Shown one piece after another: positions 55,073 through 64,000 of a stretch of DNA of 64,000 nt. The first letter of the stretch is position 1. Each line of letters opens with the position of its first letter. Location of the stretch: assembly GCA_030535455.1 (NCBI GenBank), contig JAUNJY010000003.1:62001-126000 (forward strand), given 5' to 3'. Position numbers and translations under genes: made by a program. Source of the stretch: a bacterium. Lineage in GTDB: Bacteria > Bacillota > Clostridia > Lachnospirales > Lachnospiraceae. The notes under the pieces were generated by a model. The model made no database searches. It saw nothing but the letters and a program-made list of their open reading frames with translations, and was not told the origin of the DNA.

Positions 55073-55421
55073 AGCCCATATTCCTCCTTAGTAAAAATTA
55101 ATCGCTCTCCCATCATTTAAAATTCTAAAATCACTTGTTACTTATTAGGTTCTTACTATAGACTAATACGTTTAATTATCTAAATTCTAAAAATAAAGCC
55201 CTACTGAACATTACTTCAATAAGACTTTATTTTTTAGTTTTTAACTTCCCAAGTGTTTCCATAAATACATTATACTGAAATCCACAAGGTAAATCAATCC
55301 ATCAATATTTTAATTATTGTGCTTTTTCTATGACTATCACTTTGCATAACATAATACTATTATATAAATGTATAGCTTCTATATTTACTCAATTTTTCTA
55401 GTATTGATCTAATTGACTAAT
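55073..55421. other. AT-rich intergenic stretch without gene
   Basis: About 350 bases with no supported gene. A weak hairpin (about 55200-55250, AAATAAAGCC...GACTTTATTT) is visible; otherwise nothing recognisable. It separates the chromosomal cyclase gene from the guaA remnant. Confidence 0.5.
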
Positions 55422-55470
55422 AGAAAAAGCCCCTAGGCCCTTGTATATCAAGAACCTAGGGGCTTTTTCT
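55422..55470. terminator. guaA-side terminator
   Basis: Sixteen-base perfect stem AGAAAAAGCCCCTAGG / CCTAGGGGCTTTTTCT (55422-55437, 55455-55470), three bases after the guaA fragment stop. T-rich ends on both strands. It is probably the original guaA terminator. Confidence 0.9.
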
Positions 55471-55472
55471 AA

Positions 55473-55645
55473 TTATTCAAATTCAATCGTTGCAGGTGGT
55501 TTCCCCGTACAATCATAAAGTACTCTATTGATACCCTTAACTTCATTTACGATTCTTGAAGAAACTTTACCAAGTACTTCCCAAGGAAGTTCTGCGAATT
55601 CCGCTGTCATAAAGTCGGACGTGGTTACGGCACGAAGCGCTTGAT
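55473..55645 (-). pseudogene. guaA: guaA 3' fragment (attachment site remnant)
   Basis: On the minus strand the last about 57 codons of GMP synthase are readable: [29 protein letters not shown] and the C-terminal [10 protein letters not shown] followed by TAA (stop 55473-55475). Homology ends at about 55645, followed by a stop codon and unrelated AT-rich sequence. GuaA is normally about 510 residues, so about 450 are missing. This is the pattern left when an element integrates into the 3' end of guaA and carries a replacement end. The intact guaA should lie at the far end of the element, beyond the window. Confidence 0.88.
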
Positions 55646-55806
55646 TTTACTACATTCTCTATATAAATCATTGGTCATTGTTTTAGTAGGTAGCCACTTG
55701 CATCTTTATGTAATAGGTGGCTCTCATGTTGCTAAATTAATTCTAACAATAATCTTCATAATTATCAATATAGCTCTCAAATTCTTCTTTACATACATAA
55801 CTCAAA
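55646..55806. other. Left end of integrated element, no gene
   Basis: About 160 AT-rich bases right of the guaA fragment. No coding frame with support. It holds an imperfect inverted repeat AGCCAC...GTGGCT (about 55696-55730). The recombination end lies somewhere in or at the guaA boundary; the other copy is not in the window, so the core cannot be marked. Confidence 0.5.
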
Positions 55807-55835
55807 TTGATTAACATGGAACTTTATGGTATATT
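55807..55835 (+). promoter_or_regulatory. Promoter of 134-residue orphan gene
   Basis: -35 TTGATT (55807-55812), 17-base spacer, -10 TATATT (55830-55835), 33 bases before an AGGAGG site and the ATG at 55869. Confidence 0.65.
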
Positions 55836-55868
55836 GGTACTACTATAAGAGAAAGGAGGAAACATATA

Positions 55869-56273
55869 ATGAATTATGATGAATTTATGAATATAATTGT
55901 TCAATCTAATCCCTCTGATTGGATATATGATGATGCAAAATCAACATATATCTATAAACCAAATCTCTACATTTCTATTATAGGTAAAGAAATGGATTAC
56001 TCAGAATCTGGTTTATTTTATGAGGATTGGGCAACAAATCATCCCGATTCAAACGCTCGTAAAAAAGAGTTTGAATTGTGCTTTAATGGAACATGTGTAG
56101 ATACATTCTATACCGCTTCAGTTGATGGCTCTAGAATGTATATTCCATATCCAAAGTTGGAAAGTATGACAATTACTCAAAAACAATATGCCATTGGAAA
56201 TATTGTTAATATTCCAAATGAAGGTTATGGATACGACAGTTACCTAAGTCGTTGTGGCATTACAGTTCAATAA
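55869..56273 (+). CDS. Orphan 134-residue protein in element
   Basis: Unrecognised soluble protein of 134 residues, rich in Tyr and Asp, with WATNHPDS and NEGYGYDSYL as its most distinct segments. No membrane helix or signal. It is the only plus-strand gene of the element, next to the guaA boundary, with a clear promoter, AGGAGG site and own terminator, so it looks like an independently expressed cargo gene. I do not assign a function. Confidence 0.75.
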   Translation: MNYDEFMNIIVQSNPSDWIYDDAKSTYIYKPNLYISIIGKEMDYSESGLFYEDWATNHPDSNARKKEFELCFNGTCVDTFYTASVDGSRMYIPYPKLESMTITQKQYAIGNIVNIPNEGYGYDSYLSRCGITVQ

Positions 56274-56280
56274 AAAAAGC

Positions 56281-56309
56281 ACCCAACCATTAATTAGTCA
56301 TGGTTGGGT
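56281..56309 (+). terminator. Terminator of orphan gene
   Basis: Stem ACCCAACCA / TGGTTGGGT (56281-56289, 56301-56309), followed by GTTTTG; preceded by AAAAAAA. Eight bases after the stop. Confidence 0.85.
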
Positions 56310-56485
56310 GTTTTGTATACTTACATAATTTATTTTTTCATTAAATACTCAAATAATCCTCTTAATGATGGGTCATTATATTATCTTAACAGACTTATAA
56401 ATTCATATATATATATTCTTTATACAATCTATTAATAATTCTTACAAATTATATTAAGCTTAACAAATGCTTTCGTATCATAAAA

Positions 56486-57736
56486 TCATACTTTATAGAA
56501 ATTGCAATAAGCTCGCTCCAATTCTACACAACAAGAACTATTAAAATACTCTGAATGAAGCTTTGCATCAACTTTCTGATATTGCTCAAAATCAGTATAT
56601 CCAGAAAAATATCTTATCAAAGTATAAAAGACTGAACTTTGATCTCCATAGCTCAATGTCATACATGTCCAATATTCTGTATGACCAATTATTAAAACTT
56701 CATACAGTAAATGGTATAAATTAAATTGTGCTTCATTTATATCGAACCAATCTTTACTCAATATGCGCTTTCGTTCCAAGTCATTTTCATATACTTTTCG
56801 AATATCCGTTACATGATCTTCTTCTATATCCCTATCATGATACAATCCATATATCATTCTTCCAATAAAAGTTGCTAGCCAATCAGATACCCTAAGCTCT
56901 AAAATCTTGTCCGATTTTCCACACCTAACATCTTGAAAATCAAATTTTTTTGCTGCCTCATAAGTTCTCTTTTCTTCATCTATTACTAAGCTTACATCTT
57001 CCGATCGAATATGCTTCTCTTCCAGTAAGTTGCATAAACCACCAAAGTTTATAGTATATTGAAAACCATACTCTCTTTCAGGAAGTTCATTAATCTGGGA
57101 TTCTTTTAATATGTACAGAATATTTTTGAAGGCCTCTATTTCTTTCTCTTTTCGTACAATTTCTTTAGTTGCATCTAAAATACATTCAAAATTATACTCA
57201 AGTTTTTCTTTAAACTCTATCATCGACTTGTAATCATGTACATCATAAAGAGTCTTAACAAGTTCTTCATTATGATATGTAAGCATAAATTTAGTTAGTG
57301 AGTAATAAAATGAGTTTTCTAATAATCTACCATGTCCTAAATACTCCAATCCTCTCAGTGCTGATCTTAGATACAACTCCATCTTACTTACCATGTTTAT
57401 TTGCAAAACTGGATTTAATGCATCTAACATCGTAAAAAATTCTGTATAAAATTCCATTGTATTTTTATTAAAAGATCGGATTCCATATATAAAATTCTTT
57501 TTCCCTATTGTTGTAGATTTAAGCTCTTGATCATCACTAAGTCCATATCGTTTTTTTTGCCGATCTTCAAATTTCCTAATAATATTTCTATTACTTATCA
57601 ATTCAGAATTTTTACATCCCCAGAACACACCAATATAATTATCAAGAGCTTCATTACGTAACGTATTGAAATCTCCATTCTCATTAATCCGAATTACTCT
57701 ATCATGAAAAGATTCATCAAAGAAAAATGTATACAT
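56486..57736 (-). CDS. DUF3800-like nuclease-fold protein
   Basis: 416 residues from the ATG at 57736 (GGAGG 13 bases upstream; the frame opens from a TTG 11 codons earlier). The N-terminus MYTFFFDES resembles the start of DUF3800, an RNase H-like family with conserved aspartates; further candidates are VIDEEK in the second half and VSDWLATFIGRMIYG near residue 290. Central and C-terminal parts are helical and unrecognised. DUF3800 genes often sit in mobile elements and near defence systems. Divergent member or look-alike; moderate certainty. Confidence 0.6.
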   Translation of the reverse strand: MYTFFFDESFHDRVIRINENGDFNTLRNEALDNYIGVFWGCKNSELISNRNIIRKFEDRQKKRYGLSDDQELKSTTIGKKNFIYGIRSFNKNTMEFYTEFFTMLDALNPVLQINMVSKMELYLRSALRGLEYLGHGRLLENSFYYSLTKFMLTYHNEELVKTLYDVHDYKSMIEFKEKLEYNFECILDATKEIVRKEKEIEAFKNILYILKESQINELPEREYGFQYTINFGGLCNLLEEKHIRSEDVSLVIDEEKRTYEAAKKFDFQDVRCGKSDKILELRVSDWLATFIGRMIYGLYHDRDIEEDHVTDIRKVYENDLERKRILSKDWFDINEAQFNLYHLLYEVLIIGHTEYWTCMTLSYGDQSSVFYTLIRYFSGYTDFEQYQKVDAKLHSEYFNSSCCVELERAYCNFYKV

Positions 57737-57835
57737 ATCTATTGGATAACCTCCTTTTTCATTGTTCAAAATAAGCTTGCATATTTCTACATATATTCAT
57801 TGTATCCTGTATCAATTATTACAGCAATACATTCT

Positions 57836-58444
57836 TTATGCTACTCTGTTACATATACCTCGTTGATAATCTATTTCATACTTCCATCTGTATCCTCCAG
57901 CAGTCCTATTAATTCCCTTACAGCACTTTGAAATACCAGACTTATGAACCCCGACCGCCTTACTTGCTAAAACAAGAGAATCGTATACTGTAATGAAATT
58001 TCCATACTGATCTAAGCATACTACCTTCACAGAATTGGCTTCACTAATCTGCTTCCTTTGATCTAGTGATACAACCTTTCCCTTGTTGGCTCTTCCGATT
58101 CGTTCTTTTGTCTTATTGGAATGTTTTCCACCTTTGCCACCTGCACGAAGATTATATCCAAATGCTTCATCCTGTGTTCTTAGCATAGCGATTAATCGTT
58201 TCTCTAACTCCTCAGCCTGTTCAGTGGACATAAACTCTCCTACAATTCTACTTTCAAATGCATCTGCTCCATACTTCTGAATTGCACCATAAAACTCTGT
58301 ACAGTTTCGGTAGTCCGCAAACTGCTTATTTCCACGCCTCGCCTTTAATGACTGATTTGTCATTCCTACATACTTCTTGTTATTATATTTGTTAGTATAG
58401 ATATACACGATGTACTTTGATTCCTTATGACCTTTGTTCTTCAT
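57836..58444 (-). CDS. GIY-YIG endonuclease with NUMOD domains
   Basis: 202 residues. GIY-YIG domain at the N-terminus (YIVYIYTNKYNNKKYVGMT, Arg of KARRG and Glu in EELEKRLI), a NUMOD3 repeat (HSNKTKERIGRANKGK) and a NUMOD1-type C-terminal DNA-binding unit (VVCLDQYGNFITVYDSLVLA). The layout is that of homing endonucleases of phages and introns. Freestanding here, after its own start with GAAAGGAACG. Downstream of the protease-like gene, behind a hairpin. Confidence 0.88.
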   Translation of the reverse strand: MKNKGHKESKYIVYIYTNKYNNKKYVGMTNQSLKARRGNKQFADYRNCTEFYGAIQKYGADAFESRIVGEFMSTEQAEELEKRLIAMLRTQDEAFGYNLRAGGKGGKHSNKTKERIGRANKGKVVSLDQRKQISEANSVKVVCLDQYGNFITVYDSLVLASKAVGVHKSGISKCCKGINRTAGGYRWKYEIDYQRGICNRVA

Positions 58445-58499
58445 AATACGTTCCTTTCTAATGCTCCCTAATCACTGTCTCATTGGCATAAAAAAAAGA

Positions 58500-58517
58500 G
58501 ATAGGTTTTAACCTATC
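58500..58517 (-). terminator. Hairpin at end of packaging-gene run
   Basis: GATAGGT/ACCTATC stem (about 58500-58517) overlapping the stop of the protease-like gene, followed on the minus strand by TTTTTTTT. It would end the transcript before the GIY-YIG gene. Confidence 0.75.
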
Positions 58518-59148
58518 CCCTCAAACTTGTAATTACCCTTTTTAACTCTTCAACTTCTTTTCTTCTTAACTGTTGAATGGTTTTCCTCATATACTCTAAC
58601 AATTGATCTCTTTCATTGTTACTTAATGGAGTTTCGCTGTCTCCAACATAGATCATTGCAGAAGGATATGCCGGTTGCTGTTTATGCAGAAGAATACTGA
58701 TTTCTCTAAGCTCTGTAAATGATAGAATGGTTCTTTCCCAATCATATGGCTTTGCTGTATCGTTAGAAGTATTCAACCATCGGCTATCTCCCTCAACAAA
58801 TCCAAATGAGATTGCTCCAATCTGGCTAATGTTTTGCAGTAGTTCAATAGAAGGTTCTAATAGAAATTCAAACTCAAATGCTGATTTTGTATCATTCCAA
58901 TGAAATTCTTTTACCTTCTCCTGCTTATGGTACTGATGATTTAATAATAACAATGGCTCTTTTCCTGTCTCTTTCAGTACCTGACCAAATGCCATTGGTG
59001 CTATTCTTTCTTTCATAAGTCCCTTTTTATGAGCAGAATATAAGATTTCTGATTCACTTAAATAGGGGATGCTACCTTTAAGCAGTAGCTCCCCTCCTTC
59101 TTTAACACGTATTTCAAACATGCGTATCCATTTTTGACTTCGCTCCAT
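58513..59148 (-). CDS. HK97-type prohead protease-like protein
   Basis: 211 residues. The order of motifs follows caudovirus prohead proteases (peptidase U35): IAPMAFGQVLKE (49-60), a His in LLNHQYH (H71), AISFGF with the probable catalytic Ser114, and SILLHKQQPAYPSAM at the end of the core (151-165). A charged C-terminal helix follows. Such proteases mature phage capsids. Its gene starts within the stop codon of the preceding gene (TAATG). No capsid or portal gene follows in the window, which is unusual. The call is by motif order, not by search. Confidence 0.6.
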   Translation of the reverse strand: MERSQKWIRMFEIRVKEGGELLLKGSIPYLSESEILYSAHKKGLMKERIAPMAFGQVLKETGKEPLLLLNHQYHKQEKVKEFHWNDTKSAFEFEFLLEPSIELLQNISQIGAISFGFVEGDSRWLNTSNDTAKPYDWERTILSFTELREISILLHKQQPAYPSAMIYVGDSETPLSNNERDQLLEYMRKTIQQLRRKEVEELKRVITSLRG

Positions 59149-59777
59149 TAATCTAGTACTCCTTCTAAATAATTCAGTCTCTCATTACATTGCTCTTTTA
59201 TACTATCAAGCTTATGTGTTACAGCTGAATAAAGCCTTAATATAAGCTCTTCTCTTGTTGGTAACTGTAACGTTTCCTTAATGCTTTCTAACTCTTGTGA
59301 TAGCACCTGTATTTCTTTTTCTTTATTCTTTGCAAGAGATGGATTAACTTGTTCCAAGGTCTCTACAATTTGCATCTGTTTCTGAATCTCTTTCTCTAGT
59401 TCCTCCATCCTTACTTTTCGCTCTCCCTCTGGATATGCTTGTTCTAATATCTCTCCCCTTACCAATTCATTGTAAGTTCTTTGATAAGATGCCACTACTA
59501 ATCCATCACTTAATTGACATATTAAATCATCAGTCTCCGATCTTTCTTTTTCACTATAAATTCCCTCTAAATCAATCAAATCCATATTAATTGCATATCC
59601 ATCTAATTCCTCATTTAATACTCTAAGAGCCTGTTTAGCGACTTCTACTCCAATAACATTCTTACGAGTCATATCCTTCGAACATGGATTCACTAATCCA
59701 TTAATACTAAATAGATAATTTTCGATTTCGTTCATTCTTTTCTTTGTGATTCCTTTTTGTACTTTCTTATTTGCCAT
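59148..59777 (-). CDS. Coiled-coil protein between terminase and protease
   Basis: 209 residues from the ATG at 59777 (GGAG nine bases upstream; another ATG two codons earlier). Largely helical with a coiled coil (about 120-175, EKEIQKQMQIVETLEQ...). No family recognised. By position it could be a scaffold-like or capsid-associated protein of a satellite, but only the neighbours suggest this. Translationally coupled with the protease-like gene. Confidence 0.6.
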   Translation of the reverse strand: MANKKVQKGITKKRMNEIENYLFSINGLVNPCSKDMTRKNVIGVEVAKQALRVLNEELDGYAINMDLIDLEGIYSEKERSETDDLICQLSDGLVVASYQRTYNELVRGEILEQAYPEGERKVRMEELEKEIQKQMQIVETLEQVNPSLAKNKEKEIQVLSQELESIKETLQLPTREELILRLYSAVTHKLDSIKEQCNERLNYLEGVLD

Positions 59778-59792
59778 AATCATGGTCTCCTT

Positions 59793-59954
59793 TTATTTGT
59801 TATATTTATTTTCTTTAGCATCTTTCAATGCACAGTTGCTGATTACCTTTTGGTGGTTACTTCCTCTATTCAATACTGATTGAAATTTTAGAAGATATTG
59901 CGTAAATTCATCAAGTTCGATTTCTTTGACTTTTGTTCGTACCTTTTTAGCCAT
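59793..59954 (-). CDS. Small basic protein, 53 residues
   Basis: Short gene: start MAKKVRTKVKEIELDEF, end KENKYNK, stop at 59793-59795. Its ATG overlaps the stop of the terminase-like gene (ATGA at 59951-59954), showing translational coupling. Basic, no recognised family. Followed by a GGAG site for the coiled-coil gene. Confidence 0.65.
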   Translation of the reverse strand: MAKKVRTKVKEIELDEFTQYLLKFQSVLNRGSNHQKVISNCALKDAKENKYNK

Positions 59955-60364
59955 CAGTTTTCCTCCATATCCAAAGCCAAAATTGTCTTTCTTCCCTTTG
60001 GTGTTAATCCATAGCTATCAAGTAAAGTTAGAGCCTTAGATGTACCATCTAATTTCAGCTTATAAAACTTATGATAGACCATTAGATTTTGCTTGTTTCT
60101 AGCTTCTCTTAATTGCTCATTGATAAACTCAAGTTCCTGCAATAGTTCACATAGAAGCTTTAATGTTAATAAATCTGTGTTAATCAAATTAGGAACCTGA
60201 TCTAATAGAAACTGAGCCATTTTCTTTGCATATGCCCCATCTACTAGCTTTATAAGCTCATTATTTTCTATCATATCTGTATCAATAGAAGTAAAATATG
60301 CTTGTAACTCTTCTTCTTTACTTGTTGTATTAACTACCGCACGATTATAAATTAAATTCTCCAT
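59954..60364 (-). CDS. P27-family-like small terminase
   Basis: 136 residues, all helical. The layout of two long helices and the closing motif LDSYGLTPKGRKTI (115-128) match small terminase subunits of the P27 family, which recognise the packaging site of phage DNA. In helper-dependent satellites the TerS redirects packaging to satellite DNA. Start overlaps the upstream RHH gene by 13 bases. No large terminase follows. The assignment rests on the C-terminal motif and length. Confidence 0.6.
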   Translation of the reverse strand: MENLIYNRAVVNTTSKEEELQAYFTSIDTDMIENNELIKLVDGAYAKKMAQFLLDQVPNLINTDLLTLKLLCELLQELEFINEQLREARNKQNLMVYHKFYKLKLDGTSKALTLLDSYGLTPKGRKTILALDMEEN

Positions 60365-60534
60365 GCTTTTTTCCTCTTTTCTTGTGTTGTTTCAAATGAT
60401 GCATGATTCTTGAAGTACATCTTTAATCCAACTCTTACAATATCGCTAATTGATAAACCACTATGGAAACTCTCTTGTTCTAGAGCTTCTTTTTCCTCTG
60501 TCTCCATTCGTAAACTCACTACTGTATATTTCAT
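60352..60534 (-). CDS. Ribbon-helix-helix protein, 60 residues
   Basis: 60 residues. Short basic beta strand TVVSLRMETEE, then two helices with SGLSISDIVRVGLKMYFK, typical of CopG/Arc-type RHH DNA-binding proteins. Runs into the terminase-like gene. A GTACGTA motif lies 61 bases upstream of its start, a candidate own operator. Confidence 0.8.
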   Translation of the reverse strand: MKYTVVSLRMETEEKEALEQESFHSGLSISDIVRVGLKMYFKNHASFETTQEKRKKAWRI

Positions 60535-60594
60535 ATGGACTCCTTTCTTGTTTTACATGTAATAATTAAAAATCTCACAAAAATGCAAGATATT

Positions 60595-60601
60595 GTACGT
60601 A
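60595..60601. promoter_or_regulatory. GTACGTA site 1
   Basis: GTACGTA, 61 bases upstream of the 60-residue RHH gene. Same heptamer as at 60852 and 60903. Confidence 0.35.
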
Positions 60602-60674
60602 AATGTAGGGCTGCACTCATAATCCGTAAACAAAAAAATAATTGCCCACTACGGACAACTTAGCTCTCCTTTAT

Positions 60675-60821
60675 TTACTTATTGAATCGTTTACTTGCTT
60701 GTCTGATTAAATAACGAATATATTGTGACATAGTAAAGTAATTCTGTTCTGCCCCAACTCGTAACAACTCTTTTTCTTCTTGTGACATATTTACAAGAAT
60801 ACTATGCTTTTTTTCAACCAT
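60675..60821 (-). CDS. Ribbon-helix-helix protein, 48 residues
   Basis: 48 residues (start MVEKKHSILVNMSQEEKELL, end ASKRFNK; stop 60675-60677). RHH-like: a strand HSILVNM followed by two helices with FTMSQYIRYLIRQ. Start ATG at 60821 after AGAAAAGGA. The gene has GTACGTA sites 31 and 82 bases upstream of its start. A likely small regulator of the element. Confidence 0.7.
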   Translation of the reverse strand: MVEKKHSILVNMSQEEKELLRVGAEQNYFTMSQYIRYLIRQASKRFNK

Positions 60822-60851
60822 TGAATTATCCTTTCTTTTCCTCTGCATAAC

Positions 60852-60909
60852 GTACGTATCTGACTTAATAGTTCCAACAAATATCAGAACTAATTAAGCA
60901 ATGTACGTA
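60852..60909. promoter_or_regulatory. Two GTACGTA sites upstream of RHH gene
   Basis: GTACGTA at 60852-60858 and at 60903-60909, each containing the palindrome TACGTA, in the gap between two genes of the element. They are candidate RHH operators or replication iterons. Confidence 0.35.
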
Positions 60910-60978
60910 CAGCTATATGCAATGATATAAGTCTTCTAGGGATATATAATTACTATATATCCCCTCACCCTCTTTGTC

Positions 60979-61848
60979 TTAAGAAGCAAGTTTTTGTCCT
61001 ACTTTTGAAACTTTTTTTCTGTAGTCCACTACTTTTTCCCCATAGTAAAGTGCAATCTTCTTACATACTTTTAAATACCGTTTCCGGATGCCTGAGAACT
61101 GAATATGAAACTCTCCTTCTAACTCTTTCAATGTATAACCTTGATTAATTTTATACAGCAGTTCTACCTCAGATTTACTTAATACTCCTTGCTGTTCTAA
61201 CTTTTCAATAGCAACTCTTATGTCCAGTGCTATAAGTGTCAATGTATCATTAGGGATAATCTCTGATTCTAGTGCTATATTATTAATTAATGCTTGGACA
61301 TGCTGCTCATTGCTATAGTCAAGGAAACTCCAATCAATTGTTTCTCCAATATAAGAATTTCTATGAGGCTTCTCAGTATAGCCCATAAGCTGTTTTTTCA
61401 CCTCTAGCATATCCTTTGCTATTTCACTAGCAAGATACTTATATTTGAACAGTGTAATAGCTTTGGATTCATACTGTTTGTTATAATACTGCTTTAGTTG
61501 CTCATACTGTCTCAAGATAGTTCCCATATAATTAGGTGCATTGAGATCACTAGTGGTAACTTTCCAATCATAATTTACATATCGATTTCTTGTATCCATA
61601 ATCATACTGCCATTGATGATATCTAGGTCTACACCACTATTTTTCTTTTTATTCTTCAGGCTATCATCCAGATTGTAACTGGTATCATTCCGAAATGATT
61701 TATCTCTCTCCACATCAGGAGAATTAAGTAAGTACGTTGCCAATGTATCAAGATTTGCATGGGTTAATTTTTTCCCTGCGCTCTCAATTTCAAAGATAAA
61801 TGCTTTTCTTTCTGTAAATAATAATGTATTATCTAGATTTAGTTTCAT
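60979..61848 (-). CDS. Unknown protein with C-terminal HTH
   Basis: 289 residues. The N-terminal 240 residues are unrecognised (acidic and Tyr/Asn-rich). The C-terminal about 55 residues (VELLYKINQGYTLKELEGEF...FSGIRKRYLKVCKKI) read as a sigma/LuxR-type helix-turn-helix, as in phage late-gene or replication regulators. Start ATG at 61848 after GAAAGGAATATT. Probably an element regulator. Confidence 0.55.
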   Translation of the reverse strand: MKLNLDNTLLFTERKAFIFEIESAGKKLTHANLDTLATYLLNSPDVERDKSFRNDTSYNLDDSLKNKKKNSGVDLDIINGSMIMDTRNRYVNYDWKVTTSDLNAPNYMGTILRQYEQLKQYYNKQYESKAITLFKYKYLASEIAKDMLEVKKQLMGYTEKPHRNSYIGETIDWSFLDYSNEQHVQALINNIALESEIIPNDTLTLIALDIRVAIEKLEQQGVLSKSEVELLYKINQGYTLKELEGEFHIQFSGIRKRYLKVCKKIALYYGEKVVDYRKKVSKVGQKLAS

Positions 61849-61914
61849 AATAATATTCCTTTCCTTATTTGATTGAGATTGTTGTACTAATTAAATTAGA
61901 TATGTTACGATTCT

Positions 61915-61934
61915 AAGGAGCTGTAAGGCTCCTT
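61915..61934. other. Short inverted repeat
   Basis: AAGGAGC / GCTCCTT (61915-61921, 61928-61934) in the AT-rich gap upstream of the HTH gene. It has no T run, so it is not a standard terminator; its role is unknown. The rest of the gap 61849-62061 shows no gene. Confidence 0.4.
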
Positions 61935-62061
61935 GGTCTATAACCTCTCTCTAATTTTTCTCTATAATTACTCTCTATAATATATGTGGATAAAAAACGC
62001 CCTCTATGTTAAGGCAATCTCCTTTGTAAGTAGACAGTAATTCCTTACGTATGTGGATGGT

Positions 62062-62871
62062 TTATATCAAAATGCTGTAGAAGCATTGTTTCTTAGGTGT
62101 AGAAACACTAATTTCACCATCCACTACAATTGTCTTGCAATCATACTCTCTCCTTATACGAATTAATCCTACATGCTCAAGTTCTTTTGAAGCATCTGTG
62201 ATAATTGATCTAGAGCTTGGCTTGTACCCCATATTTTTTAACAATGTATCTTGGTATACTAGTGTTTCAATATAACTACTGGAACTTCTATCCCAACAAA
62301 GCCATAGTAAATTGATAAACATTTTAATTGCTTTACTGCTACACTTCAGAAGCTTATCGTGTATATCATCAATTGGAACACGAACAAATCCTCCTGCTTT
62401 ATATTGCACTTGTATACAATGAATCGTTATCCCCTTATACTCTCTCACCACAAGAGAAAACTCCGAAGAACCTTGATCGAGTAATTTTTTTAATTCATTT
62501 CGGATTCGTTTTTTACTTAATCCTAAGAGCTTATGCATTCTATCTAAATTTCTATCAAACTTTGATAATGACATATATCTAACGTTGTCGCCCGCTTGCA
62601 TATACATATCTACATTAGATAAAATACAGACAATAATTAGGATTCTAAAATCACAGTCCGTTCTCAATATTAGCTCTTTGGTCGGAATAGGTACGTAGTT
62701 TTGAGTGGTATAGAAATGTAAATCCTCATACAGGATTTCTTCTTGTTTAACTAATTGAACTTCTTCGTTTTTCTCATGTGGACTATCCACTTGTGAACAT
62801 GTAGTATCCTCATTTGAAATGCACCATGTTTCCAAACAATCAGGCATAGTAAAACCGCTTTTAATACTCAT
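62062..62871 (-). CDS. Putative replication-initiator-like winged-helix protein
   Basis: 269 residues. The central and C-terminal region (GFVRVPIDDIHDKLL..., KMFINLLWLCWD) resembles RepA/DnaD-like winged-helix initiator proteins of plasmids and mobile elements, which also have an alternating helix-strand pattern. Similarity is loose. ATG at 62871 after AAGGAGAATGTA. It lies downstream of a small RHH gene, as in plasmid-type replication modules. Confidence 0.45.
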   Translation of the reverse strand: MSIKSGFTMPDCLETWCISNEDTTCSQVDSPHEKNEEVQLVKQEEILYEDLHFYTTQNYVPIPTKELILRTDCDFRILIIVCILSNVDMYMQAGDNVRYMSLSKFDRNLDRMHKLLGLSKKRIRNELKKLLDQGSSEFSLVVREYKGITIHCIQVQYKAGGFVRVPIDDIHDKLLKCSSKAIKMFINLLWLCWDRSSSSYIETLVYQDTLLKNMGYKPSSRSIITDASKELEHVGLIRIRREYDCKTIVVDGEISVSTPKKQCFYSILI

Positions 62872-62923
62872 TACATTCTCCTTTCACAAGTACTCTTTGC
62901 TTTACTGATAGCATCTTCATACT

Positions 62924-63088
62924 TTAAAATCCTCCATCTTCTTTTCTCTGGTTTTCTATAAATGCTACTAATAACTCTTCTATAACTGAGCTTTGCTTCC
63001 TATCACTAACCAAACATGCAATCTTAAACTCCTTCACGAGTTCCTTAGTGAGACGAACATTTAGCATTGTATCTTTTATTTGTTTCAT
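62924..63088 (-). CDS. Ribbon-helix-helix protein, 54 residues
   Basis: 54 residues from the ATG at 63088 (GAAGGAG upstream; the frame opens 12 codons earlier without a site). Strand TMLNVRLTKEL followed by helices with ACLVSDRKQSSVIEELLVAF, a CopG-type RHH regulator. It precedes the replication-like gene by about 50 bases. Confidence 0.75.
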   Translation of the reverse strand: MKQIKDTMLNVRLTKELVKEFKIACLVSDRKQSSVIEELLVAFIENQRKEDGGF

Positions 63089-63202
63089 GCTTCTTACTCC
63101 TTCAAAATATTCTTTGTAAATCAATATGATTTGCTTTACAATTCATTATCCGAAGCCACTTATGAAAACGTAAAAGGCAAATTAATTTTGGGTATAAAAA
63201 AA

Positions 63203-63220
63203 GAGCAGCCTAAGCTGCTC
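63203..63220 (-). terminator. Terminator of HEPN-like gene
   Basis: Stem GAGCAGC / GCTGCTC (63203-63209, 63214-63220), followed on the minus strand by TTTTTTT. 43 bases after the stop at 63263. Confidence 0.85.
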
Positions 63221-63262
63221 TCTCTGTAAACTAATTTTTCTAAATCAACTATCATTCACTGT

Positions 63263-64000
63263 CTAGGCTAGATAAAATTCCTTATTTATTATACAAAGTA
63301 TTCCATAAAGTAATGCTGTAACATTTAAATGATAGTAATTCTTGTATGTAGAATTACTATGTGCTAAATCATTTCTCAAATTTAACTTCTTTGTAGAAAA
63401 TAGAATCTGCATTGTTTTTCTAAATGTCTGATTTGTATATCTTTCAAACTCTATTGTTCCTACCAGTTGATTTAATGTTTTAAAGCCTTTAAGTATATCT
63501 TTCTCTGATCCTGTTAGGGTTATACCATAACGTTCGAGTAATTCAATGAATCCCTCTCCACAAGCATAAATACTGTTATATAATTTTGAATTTTTTCCAG
63601 TTAAAAAGTGGTATAAATCGATATCTTCCACACTCATAGTAATTTCATTTGCATCCATTTTTGCTTTTAATTCCTGTATTTTCTCATTGAAAACCAACAG
63701 CTTTATTCTTCCCTTTAGTTCATTTTCGATTAGAGTTGCAAATATTAACGTTGCACCATAAGCAGTATTACGTCCTGATGCCTTAGCATCTATTAACTCA
63801 TTATATGCTGACCTAAGTAAACTCGACGTGGAAATAGCACCGCAAACGCCATCCTCTACTTGTTTTAGCCTAATATCTGGCTGATCAAATATATTAAAAT
63901 ATATCTGTCCCAAAACATTCGTATAATTTGTAAAATAAACAATTTGCTCATTGGATAAATTATAATTGTAATGATCAACATCTTCTATATCAGAAAAAAC
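63263..64000 (-). CDS. HEPN-like protein, 5' end outside window
   Basis: The open frame continues to the right edge: upstream of the TTG at 63913, a possible but not convincing start, 29 more codons are open, so the gene is 5' truncated. About 245 residues are visible. Near the C-terminus LRNDLAHSNSTYKNYY contains R-x4-H (RNDLAH), the active motif of HEPN-type RNases and of related abortive-infection proteins. The protein is otherwise all-helical and unrecognised. Own terminator downstream. Cargo or core function cannot be told. Confidence 0.55.
   Translation of the reverse strand, partial: VFSDIEDVDHYNYNLSNEQIVYFTNYTNVLGQIYFNIFDQPDIRLKQVEDGVCGAISTSSLLRSAYNELIDAKASGRNTAYGATLIFATLIENELKGRIKLLVFNEKIQELKAKMDANEITMSVEDIDLYHFLTGKNSKLYNSIYACGEGFIELLERYGITLTGSEKDILKGFKTLNQLVGTIEFERYTNQTFRKTMQILFSTKKLNLRNDLAHSNSTYKNYYHLNVTALLYGILCIINKEFYLA

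Follow-up and report, generated by a model that had tools for sequence, protein, structure and literature searches.

A candidate helper-dependent phage satellite at guaA in a Lachnospiraceae genome, with a prohead protease and no recognised capsid gene

Introduction

What kind of mobile element encodes a terminase small subunit (TerS) and a prohead protease without a recognised large terminase subunit (TerL), portal or major capsid protein (MCP)? The question is raised by a locus in a Lachnospiraceae genome (assembly GCA_030535455.1), at the right end of a 64,000-nucleotide stretch of DNA which is called the window throughout. The window comprises bases 62001-126000 of the 163,448-base contig JAUNJY010000003.1 (C30), and the element extends past its right edge. 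The whole insertion is covered by a second stretch, C30:116500-136000 (L004), whose coordinates are converted to window coordinates by adding 54499; positions beyond 64000 continue the window numbering. Completeness of the assembly is 93.6% and contamination 7.7%.

A first-pass annotation of the window had proposed a satellite similar to the phage-inducible chromosomal islands (PICIs). Judged from sequence, the best explanation is a 14.8-kb helper-dependent phage satellite, which would have integrated at the guaA 3′ end by means of its own tyrosine integrase and brought a replacement guaA end with it. We put the probability of this reading at roughly 0.6. It is favoured by the precise ends, the second guaA copy, the integrase, an intact string of genes that includes TerS and the protease, and the lack of any recognised TerL, portal or MCP.

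The insertion at guaA

The left boundary (att) is a displaced guaA 3′ end at 55473-55610 on the minus strand. Its product matches the GMP synthase C-terminal domain (PF00958, 7.8e-20), and the similarity to guaA spans residues 459-513, which bears out the first identification of this segment. A terminator follows directly on the minus strand (55421-55471, inverted repeat I3), where the fold reaches -38.9 kcal/mol (z -7.8). The right half of the element lies on the same contig. Both the integrase and the full guaA gene, which the first-pass annotation had proposed to look for past 64 kb, are present there, and guaA is complete with 513 codons (70317-71858, minus strand, an intact open reading frame).

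The end of this gene (C30:132305-132478) forms the second copy. The two guaA ends make a repeat pair of 164 nt with 84% identity, 14,844 bp apart from start to start. In the last 138 nt there are 22 differences, 16 of them at third codon positions, and 2 of 45 residues are changed. The guaA gene would stay intact because the element supplies a replacement end. In the simplest reading, the host's own end is the left one, and the right one arrived with the element. This is favoured because the congeneric genome has a hairpin and T run, recognised by eye, at the corresponding position behind its guaA. Nucleotide counts against two relatives do not decide the origin of the ends (25 and 22 differences of 138 for the left end, 27 and 19 for the right).

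The guaA setting is common to the only other genome of the genus. On the 5′ side of guaA the two genomes are collinear for 5.5 kb at 75% identity. Neither the opposite side nor the element itself has a match in the congeneric genome by blastn or tblastx. The composition changes at the boundary as first described, to a compact, AT-rich and mostly minus-strand block: GC is 31.1% in the element, 39.0% in the left flank (40 kb) and 38.2% in the right flank (12 kb). The element contains 19 genes, 16 of them on the minus strand, and 12,333 of 14,680 bases are coding.

From the left, the genes encode a PDC-S50-like protein, a DUF3800-type protein, a GIY-YIG protein, the protease, a 211-aa and a 53-aa protein, TerS, two ribbon-helix-helix (RHH) proteins, a sigma-like and a replication-like protein, another RHH protein, a 309-aa protein, LmuB, a Lamassu middle protein, LmuA, an RHH_3 regulator, the integrase and a zinc-ribbon protein. 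PHROGs searches covered all 19 genes, Pfam 18 of them (all but the 134-aa PDC-S50-like protein), and NCBIfam and PADLOC 10 proteins each.

The predicted tyrosine integrase (332 aa, 68907-69905, minus strand; PF00589, 9.8e-28) adjoins the intact guaA gene. The locus is hence an integrated element of satellite size with defined ends and its own integrase. The closest integrase relative found is a decayed copy immediately next to guaA in a different genus of this family (G166:C15:33220-33415; L036, L038/L039). Residues 1-56 are retained at 75% and residues 283-332 at 66% identity, and the middle is absent. This copy is probably the scar of an earlier element. Since it also abuts guaA, this type of integrase has probably used the gene at least twice. 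Relatives at 31-36% identity do not lie beside guaA in the stretches examined, and a search of genome contigs gave two matches at 32-34%. Around the relatives (L007, L008, L010-L035, L037, L056, L057 and, viewed wider, L040-L053) no other gene of the element was found at E 0.001 or E 0.05, nor at L056/L057 even at E 1.

The insertion site also points to another type of traffic. Integrative elements are known to use guaA, and in streptococci its 3′ ends are sites of integrative and conjugative elements (ICEs; PMC4701971). A defence island moved by conjugation, in the form of an integrative mobilizable element with phage genes as chance passengers, would share this site, and two RHH proteins weakly resemble NikA while one protein weakly resembles an ICE family in NCBIfam. 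Unlike the streptococcal ICEs, however, the element has no recognised conjugation genes: relaxase, coupling and mating families were missing from the searches with PHROGs (19 genes), Pfam (18 genes), and NCBIfam and PADLOC (10 proteins each). We regard transfer by conjugation as improbable.

The prohead protease and TerS

Two genes link the element to phage packaging and capsids. Both match phage profiles, the protease firmly and TerS weakly.

The gene at 58513-59148 (minus strand) encodes a predicted HK97-family prohead (head maturation) protease of the S78 type, as the first-pass annotation had suggested. It matches PF04586 with 24.0 bits (cut-off 21) and PHROG_80 at 4.3e-7. The protein is divergent, because the NCBIfam HK97 protease model scores just 16.9 bits against a cut-off of 59. 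Aligned by hhalign with eight S78 proteins, its profile gives an E-value of 1.5e-6 and a probability of 90%. Of the 26 loci behind a local S78 profile, 7 had been picked with a motif pattern covering the His and Ser sites, with L060 in addition; the member from genome G688 was found with the query itself. Against this profile the protease scores 31.3 bits, and the best of 2000 of its own shuffles 7.0. His71, Ser114 and Glu149 align with conserved S78 columns, which we take to be the catalytic residues of the family. None of 300 shuffled cores contained so long a frame, and the same holds for the neighbouring 211-aa frame. A PDB sequence search was uninformative for both the protease and TerS, and genome contigs held no protease relative. 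The assignment as a divergent HK97-type prohead protease is confirmed at the level of sequence prediction.

Where does this protease come from? Among 341 genomes of the class (source included), one other relative was found at E < 0.001, in G688 (24% identity, E 2.9e-5); a second, partial match reached E 0.0067. The G688 protease sits in an ordinary HK97-like prophage with the order TerS-TerL-portal-protease-MCP. Since the sole relative at this threshold in other genomes lies in a full prophage of this type, the protease gene of the element is phage-derived.

The second gene, at 59954-60364 (minus strand), very probably encodes a P27-type TerS. It matches PF05119 with 22.5 bits (1.6e-4) and PHROG_83 at 8e-4, and a six-frame PF05119 scan of the source genome found it as the sole match (E 4.8e-4). 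A small local P27 profile was built for comparison; of its 29 loci 3 were picked by motif, with G688 in addition. The protein scores 10.9 bits on it, whereas the best of 2000 shuffles of the same protein reaches 8.6, and it ranks first of 21 proteins tested. Its C-terminal GLTPKGR corresponds to GLTPssR of this profile. The length is borderline against chance, as 21 of 300 shuffled cores held a frame as long. The first proposal of a P27-like TerS thus stands in weakened form: the PHROGs match and the shuffle test speak for it, whereas the Pfam score stays below the cut-off of 24.7.

A string of five intact genes

TerS and the protease belong to a string of five minus-strand genes, all intact, which overlap or lie 9 bases apart and carry Shine-Dalgarno-like sequences recognised by eye. 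The first encodes an RHH protein (60352-60534) that matches a transcriptional repressor family (PHROG_876, 2.1e-7). After TerS follows a 53-aa protein (59793-59954) with GGAGG upstream and no family; frames of 53-60 aa are at chance length (300 of 300 shuffled cores). The 211-aa Glu/Leu-rich protein (59148-59783) is predicted from its open reading frame, whose last base overlaps the start of the protease. No convincing family was recognised for it in Pfam, PHROGs or NCBIfam. Its earlier description as a coiled-coil protein did not hold, since 771 of 2000 shuffles did as well in a heptad test. It may be considered a candidate capsid-acting partner of the protease. A terminator-like hairpin on the minus strand (58495-58522) ends the string with a 12-pair stem and T run (-14.6 kcal/mol, z -3.6). 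The first RHH gene is itself preceded by a hairpin, though a weaker one (z -1.6).

Which genes are missing? The PHROGs matches (19 genes) and Pfam matches (18 genes) include no family for TerL, portal, major capsid protein, lysis or relaxase, so that none of the genes by which the first-pass annotation would have called the element a prophage was recognised. Tail families appeared only at chance-level E-values on helical stretches (0.13 and 0.15 for the 211-aa protein, 0.05 for LmuB) and are taken as chance. A complete prophage, with TerL, portal, MCP and tail, is accordingly not what was found.

A decayed prophage is a more serious alternative. An HK97-like prophage might have lost TerL, portal, capsid and tail, kept its integrase and been filled with defence cargo, leaving TerS and protease as functionless leftovers. 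Compared with G688, the order of TerS and protease is indeed the one usual for a prophage from which TerL and portal have gone between the two and MCP after them, and no relatives of the module were found. However, the intact and tightly packed string with its ribosome-site-like sequences and its hairpin and T run after the protease argues against decay. Furthermore, the active-site positions of the protease are kept, two unrelated small genes occupy the gap between TerS and protease, and no fragment of TerL, portal or capsid was recognised in PHROGs or Pfam. On balance we find a prophage remnant unlikely.

Regulators and candidate sites

Beyond the string, the element carries several predicted regulators. 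The first-pass annotation had named RHH regulators; the identification is strong for one outside the window and weak for two of the others. The strong case is the RHH_3 protein (68653-68844, plus strand; 9.1e-17). The weak ones are a second small RHH-like protein (60675-60848, minus strand; PF21983, 2.4e-3) and an Arc-like RHH protein (62924-63124, minus strand; PHROG_3180, 1.1e-3).

A repeat array at 68539-68634 precedes the RHH_3 gene and holds four exact copies and one one-mismatch copy of TAACGTTGTA in 96 bp. The array's four are the only exact copies in the 19.5-kb locus, and the 64-kb window has none. This may be an operator array, possibly a counterpart of the site of a satellite master repressor. 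Three TACGTAC sites (60595-60910), found by motif count upstream of two RHH genes, are candidate operators as well. Four matches, two of them overlapping, lie upstream of RHH genes, out of six in the 19.5-kb locus where 0.68 are expected; other parts of the window show an excess of the motif too (11 matches, 1.9 expected).

The gene at 60979-61848 (minus strand) encodes a putative sigma-factor-like activator (PHROG_5767, 1.2e-15). A relative with 23% identity is encoded on the Bacillus subtilis plasmid pBS32 (L054 2572-3606, 344 aa), and matches PHROG_5767 itself at 7.1e-107; it is possibly the known SigN. When plasmids were searched with the protease, sigma-like, replication-like and 211-aa proteins, the sigma-like protein gave the sole match, at 23% in 36 Bacillus records. 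Sigma-70 promoter-like sites are rarer than in shuffles (73 versus 85), and Rfam gave no match.

The protein at 62062-62871 (minus strand) had been called replication-like. This label could not be sustained beyond weak matches, of which the best is to a family of unknown function (PHROG_8453, 1.5e-3), followed by NF046008 (0.013) and a DnaD-like family (0.22). It is best described as a candidate replication or DNA-binding protein.

Relatives and helpers

Several results weigh against a functional satellite, and we gather them here. A working satellite would best be recognised by its recurrence, and this sign is missing, since the searches yielded no relative of the element as a whole; the sigma-like protein was present in none of 298 other family genomes. 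The protease had no relative in 396 other family genomes, a set which partly overlaps the 341 genomes above, and a PF04586 scan of the whole source genome gave no match at the protease itself at E 0.001. Peptide patterns in IMG/VR, by which only close relatives are detectable, gave nothing for the sigma-like protein, protease, replication-like protein, 211-aa protein, integrase or TerS. Phage records likewise held no match to the protease, TerS, sigma-like, 211-aa or replication-like proteins. No primase was recognised among the 19 genes, and the replication-like protein is weak. TerS remains under its Pfam cut-off, and the NCBIfam P27 model is not significant (E 0.11). The region contains 5 terminator-like sites where 4.5 are expected, a chance number, so that the terminator call after the protease rests on place and fold. 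Finally, no HK97-type helper is visible in the source genome: PF03354, PF05065 and PF04860 were without match at E 0.001. Matches to phrog_2 at four places (best 1.6e-5), a family which we take to be TerL, are uninformative for a helper as 13 of 14 control genomes match too.

Do suitable helpers exist elsewhere in the family? Of 150 family genomes, 23 have a PF04586 match, and 24, the source among them, have PF05119 matches, at 32 places in all; 30 of these places were taken as loci, one being the element's own. In 12 of the 18 PF05119 places that were viewed wider, a gene of the TerL cluster that includes the G688 TerL lies on the same stretch; the other six are L131, L135, L140, L143, L146 and L148. 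Eight of the 18 carry a gene of a cluster standing between portal and capsid, the protease position in such phages. Because these clusters accompany the PF05119 places, the family does contain HK97-type prophages that might act as helpers.

Two of the six places, both in genome G038, are of separate interest. At L143 (G038:C9, 9721-11437), a P27 TerS lies by host genes of carbohydrate-uptake type; immediately upstream is a gene for a major head protein, cut by the contig end. This is possibly a capsid-forming PICI (cf-PICI) or the edge of a prophage. At L146 (G038:C2, 9598-19459), a P27 TerS without a TerL of the same cluster stands beside host genes, together with a ResIII-type helicase, repressors, a partial integrase and transposase pieces; this is possibly another TerS-bearing island.

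Comparison with known satellites

Our findings can be related to known satellites. As in SaPI-type and other Gram-positive PICIs, the element combines a site-specific integrase and satellite size with a probable TerS and putative capsid-affecting genes, each known from some of these islands, and with predicted phage-resistance cargo (PMC6092414, PMC12409344). By its predicted gene content it is nonetheless not a classical PICI, because no regulator of the Stl/Rpr or AlpA/MerR type, no divergent arrangement of int and early genes and no primase were recognised. The regulators recognised are RHH and sigma-like proteins, int lies on the minus strand like most genes, and in place of a primase and origin module there is the one weakly matched replication-like protein. 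The term 'PICI-like' thus holds by analogy only. The satellite part of the first proposal is well supported by the integrase and full guaA gene, the phage-profile matches and the lack of recognised TerL, portal and capsid genes, and packaging by a helper is what we infer from this.

The capsid genes differ as well. The satellite capsid takeovers named in PMC12409344 are brought about by CpmAB, Ccm, Rcm, Sid or TcaP, and where SaPI-type PICIs have the size switchers CpmAB, Ccm or Rcm, the element has a prohead protease. A parallel is offered by SaPIbov5 with its HK97-like helper phi12, where the satellite acts on an HK97-type shell from which a protease removes the scaffold domain (PMC5052747); the present element may act on such a shell too. 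However, SaPIbov5 brings Ccm, a homologue of the capsid protein, while the protease is encoded by the phage (PMC5052747). Here the element brings the protease, and no capsid homologue was recognised.

With cf-PICIs the element shares a head maturation protease and TerS (PMC10690885). In contrast, cf-PICIs bring a full capsid set, encoding MCP, portal, connectors and TerL (PMC10690885). None of these was recognised here, and on predicted genes the element is not a cf-PICI. The head module of the G688 prophage is similar in its P27-type TerS and in an S78 protease of the same size (24% identity, as above). The element differs in that TerL, portal and MCP are missing and two unrelated small genes stand between TerS and protease.

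The protease without a capsid gene is the unusual part of the element. A full-text literature search, which many subscription papers lie beyond, found no satellite described with a prohead protease but without capsid genes, and 'undescribed' is provisional to that extent. One phage-satellite paper lists prohead proteases only as typical of tailed phages or known satellites. For phage satellites in Lachnospiraceae, the literature offered a mere listing within faecal-transplant work.

Cargo and defence genes

Predicted cargo lies on both sides of the string. On the left, a 134-aa protein (55869-56273, plus strand) is partly similar to the PADLOC candidate PDC-S50 (1.6e-9 over residues 13-106). 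A 427-aa DUF3800-type protein (56486-57769, minus strand) is assigned by plasmid-protein matches and reaches no Pfam family at cut-off. Plasmid records matched it 18 times; the 8 listed show 26-28% identity at 76-98% coverage, and 4 of these carry a DUF3800 annotation. A GIY-YIG homing endonuclease with a NUMOD-like part follows (57836-58444, minus strand; PF01541, 1.9e-7; PHROG_314, 1.2e-27).

On the right, three minus-strand genes form a Lamassu-like locus, with LmuA and LmuB together as expected of a member. They encode LmuB (64275-66191; PADLOC, 8.8e-52), a JetB-like middle protein (66179-66709; PADLOC, 5.3e-3) and LmuA (66699-67955; PADLOC, 8.8e-20). The locus is predicted to be defence cargo. 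Beside it, a 309-aa protein is encoded by a minus-strand open reading frame (63263-64000 in the window, on the contig to 64192), and no family reached threshold in Pfam, PHROGs, NCBIfam or PADLOC. By eye it contains an RNDLAH motif similar to that of HEPN RNases. The zinc-ribbon protein (70086-70250, plus strand; PF07295, 4.3e-11) completes the set.

A proposed takeover of helper assembly

How could such an element work? When a helper phage appears, control by the RHH repressors would give way, and the element would excise and replicate. The sigma-like protein would then drive the RHH-TerS-53aa-211aa-protease string. TerS would steer the TerL of the helper to satellite DNA, and the 211-aa protein and the protease would make the HK97-type shell of the helper assemble and mature in a form that favours the satellite. 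The Lamassu-like locus may protect the host, and hence the element, from other phages.

TerS and protease might also serve as weapons only, with a decoy subunit and a rogue protease that spoil head assembly of an invading phage while the element's own DNA is not packaged. The defence-type cargo which flanks the module on both sides would agree with this, as would a protease for which the element itself has no recognised capsid substrate. The integrase, the repeat-bearing control regions and TerS itself argue for mobility instead, and we hold such a purely defensive role to be very improbable.

Returning to the helper-dependent satellite, a further step can be suggested only tentatively. The element may represent a new satellite lineage, in which the takeover of an HK97-type helper is exerted through the satellite's own prohead protease, with the 211-aa protein as capsid-acting partner, and not through a scaffold or capsid homologue. 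The switch would then lie at capsid maturation, and TerS and protease would form one packaging-takeover operon. We consider this proposal possible but doubtful.

The element also presents a Lamassu-like locus travelling as predicted defence cargo at guaA. If the proposed reading is true, satellites would have another lever on the assembly of a helper phage, in the form of a maturation protease unaccompanied by a capsid gene.

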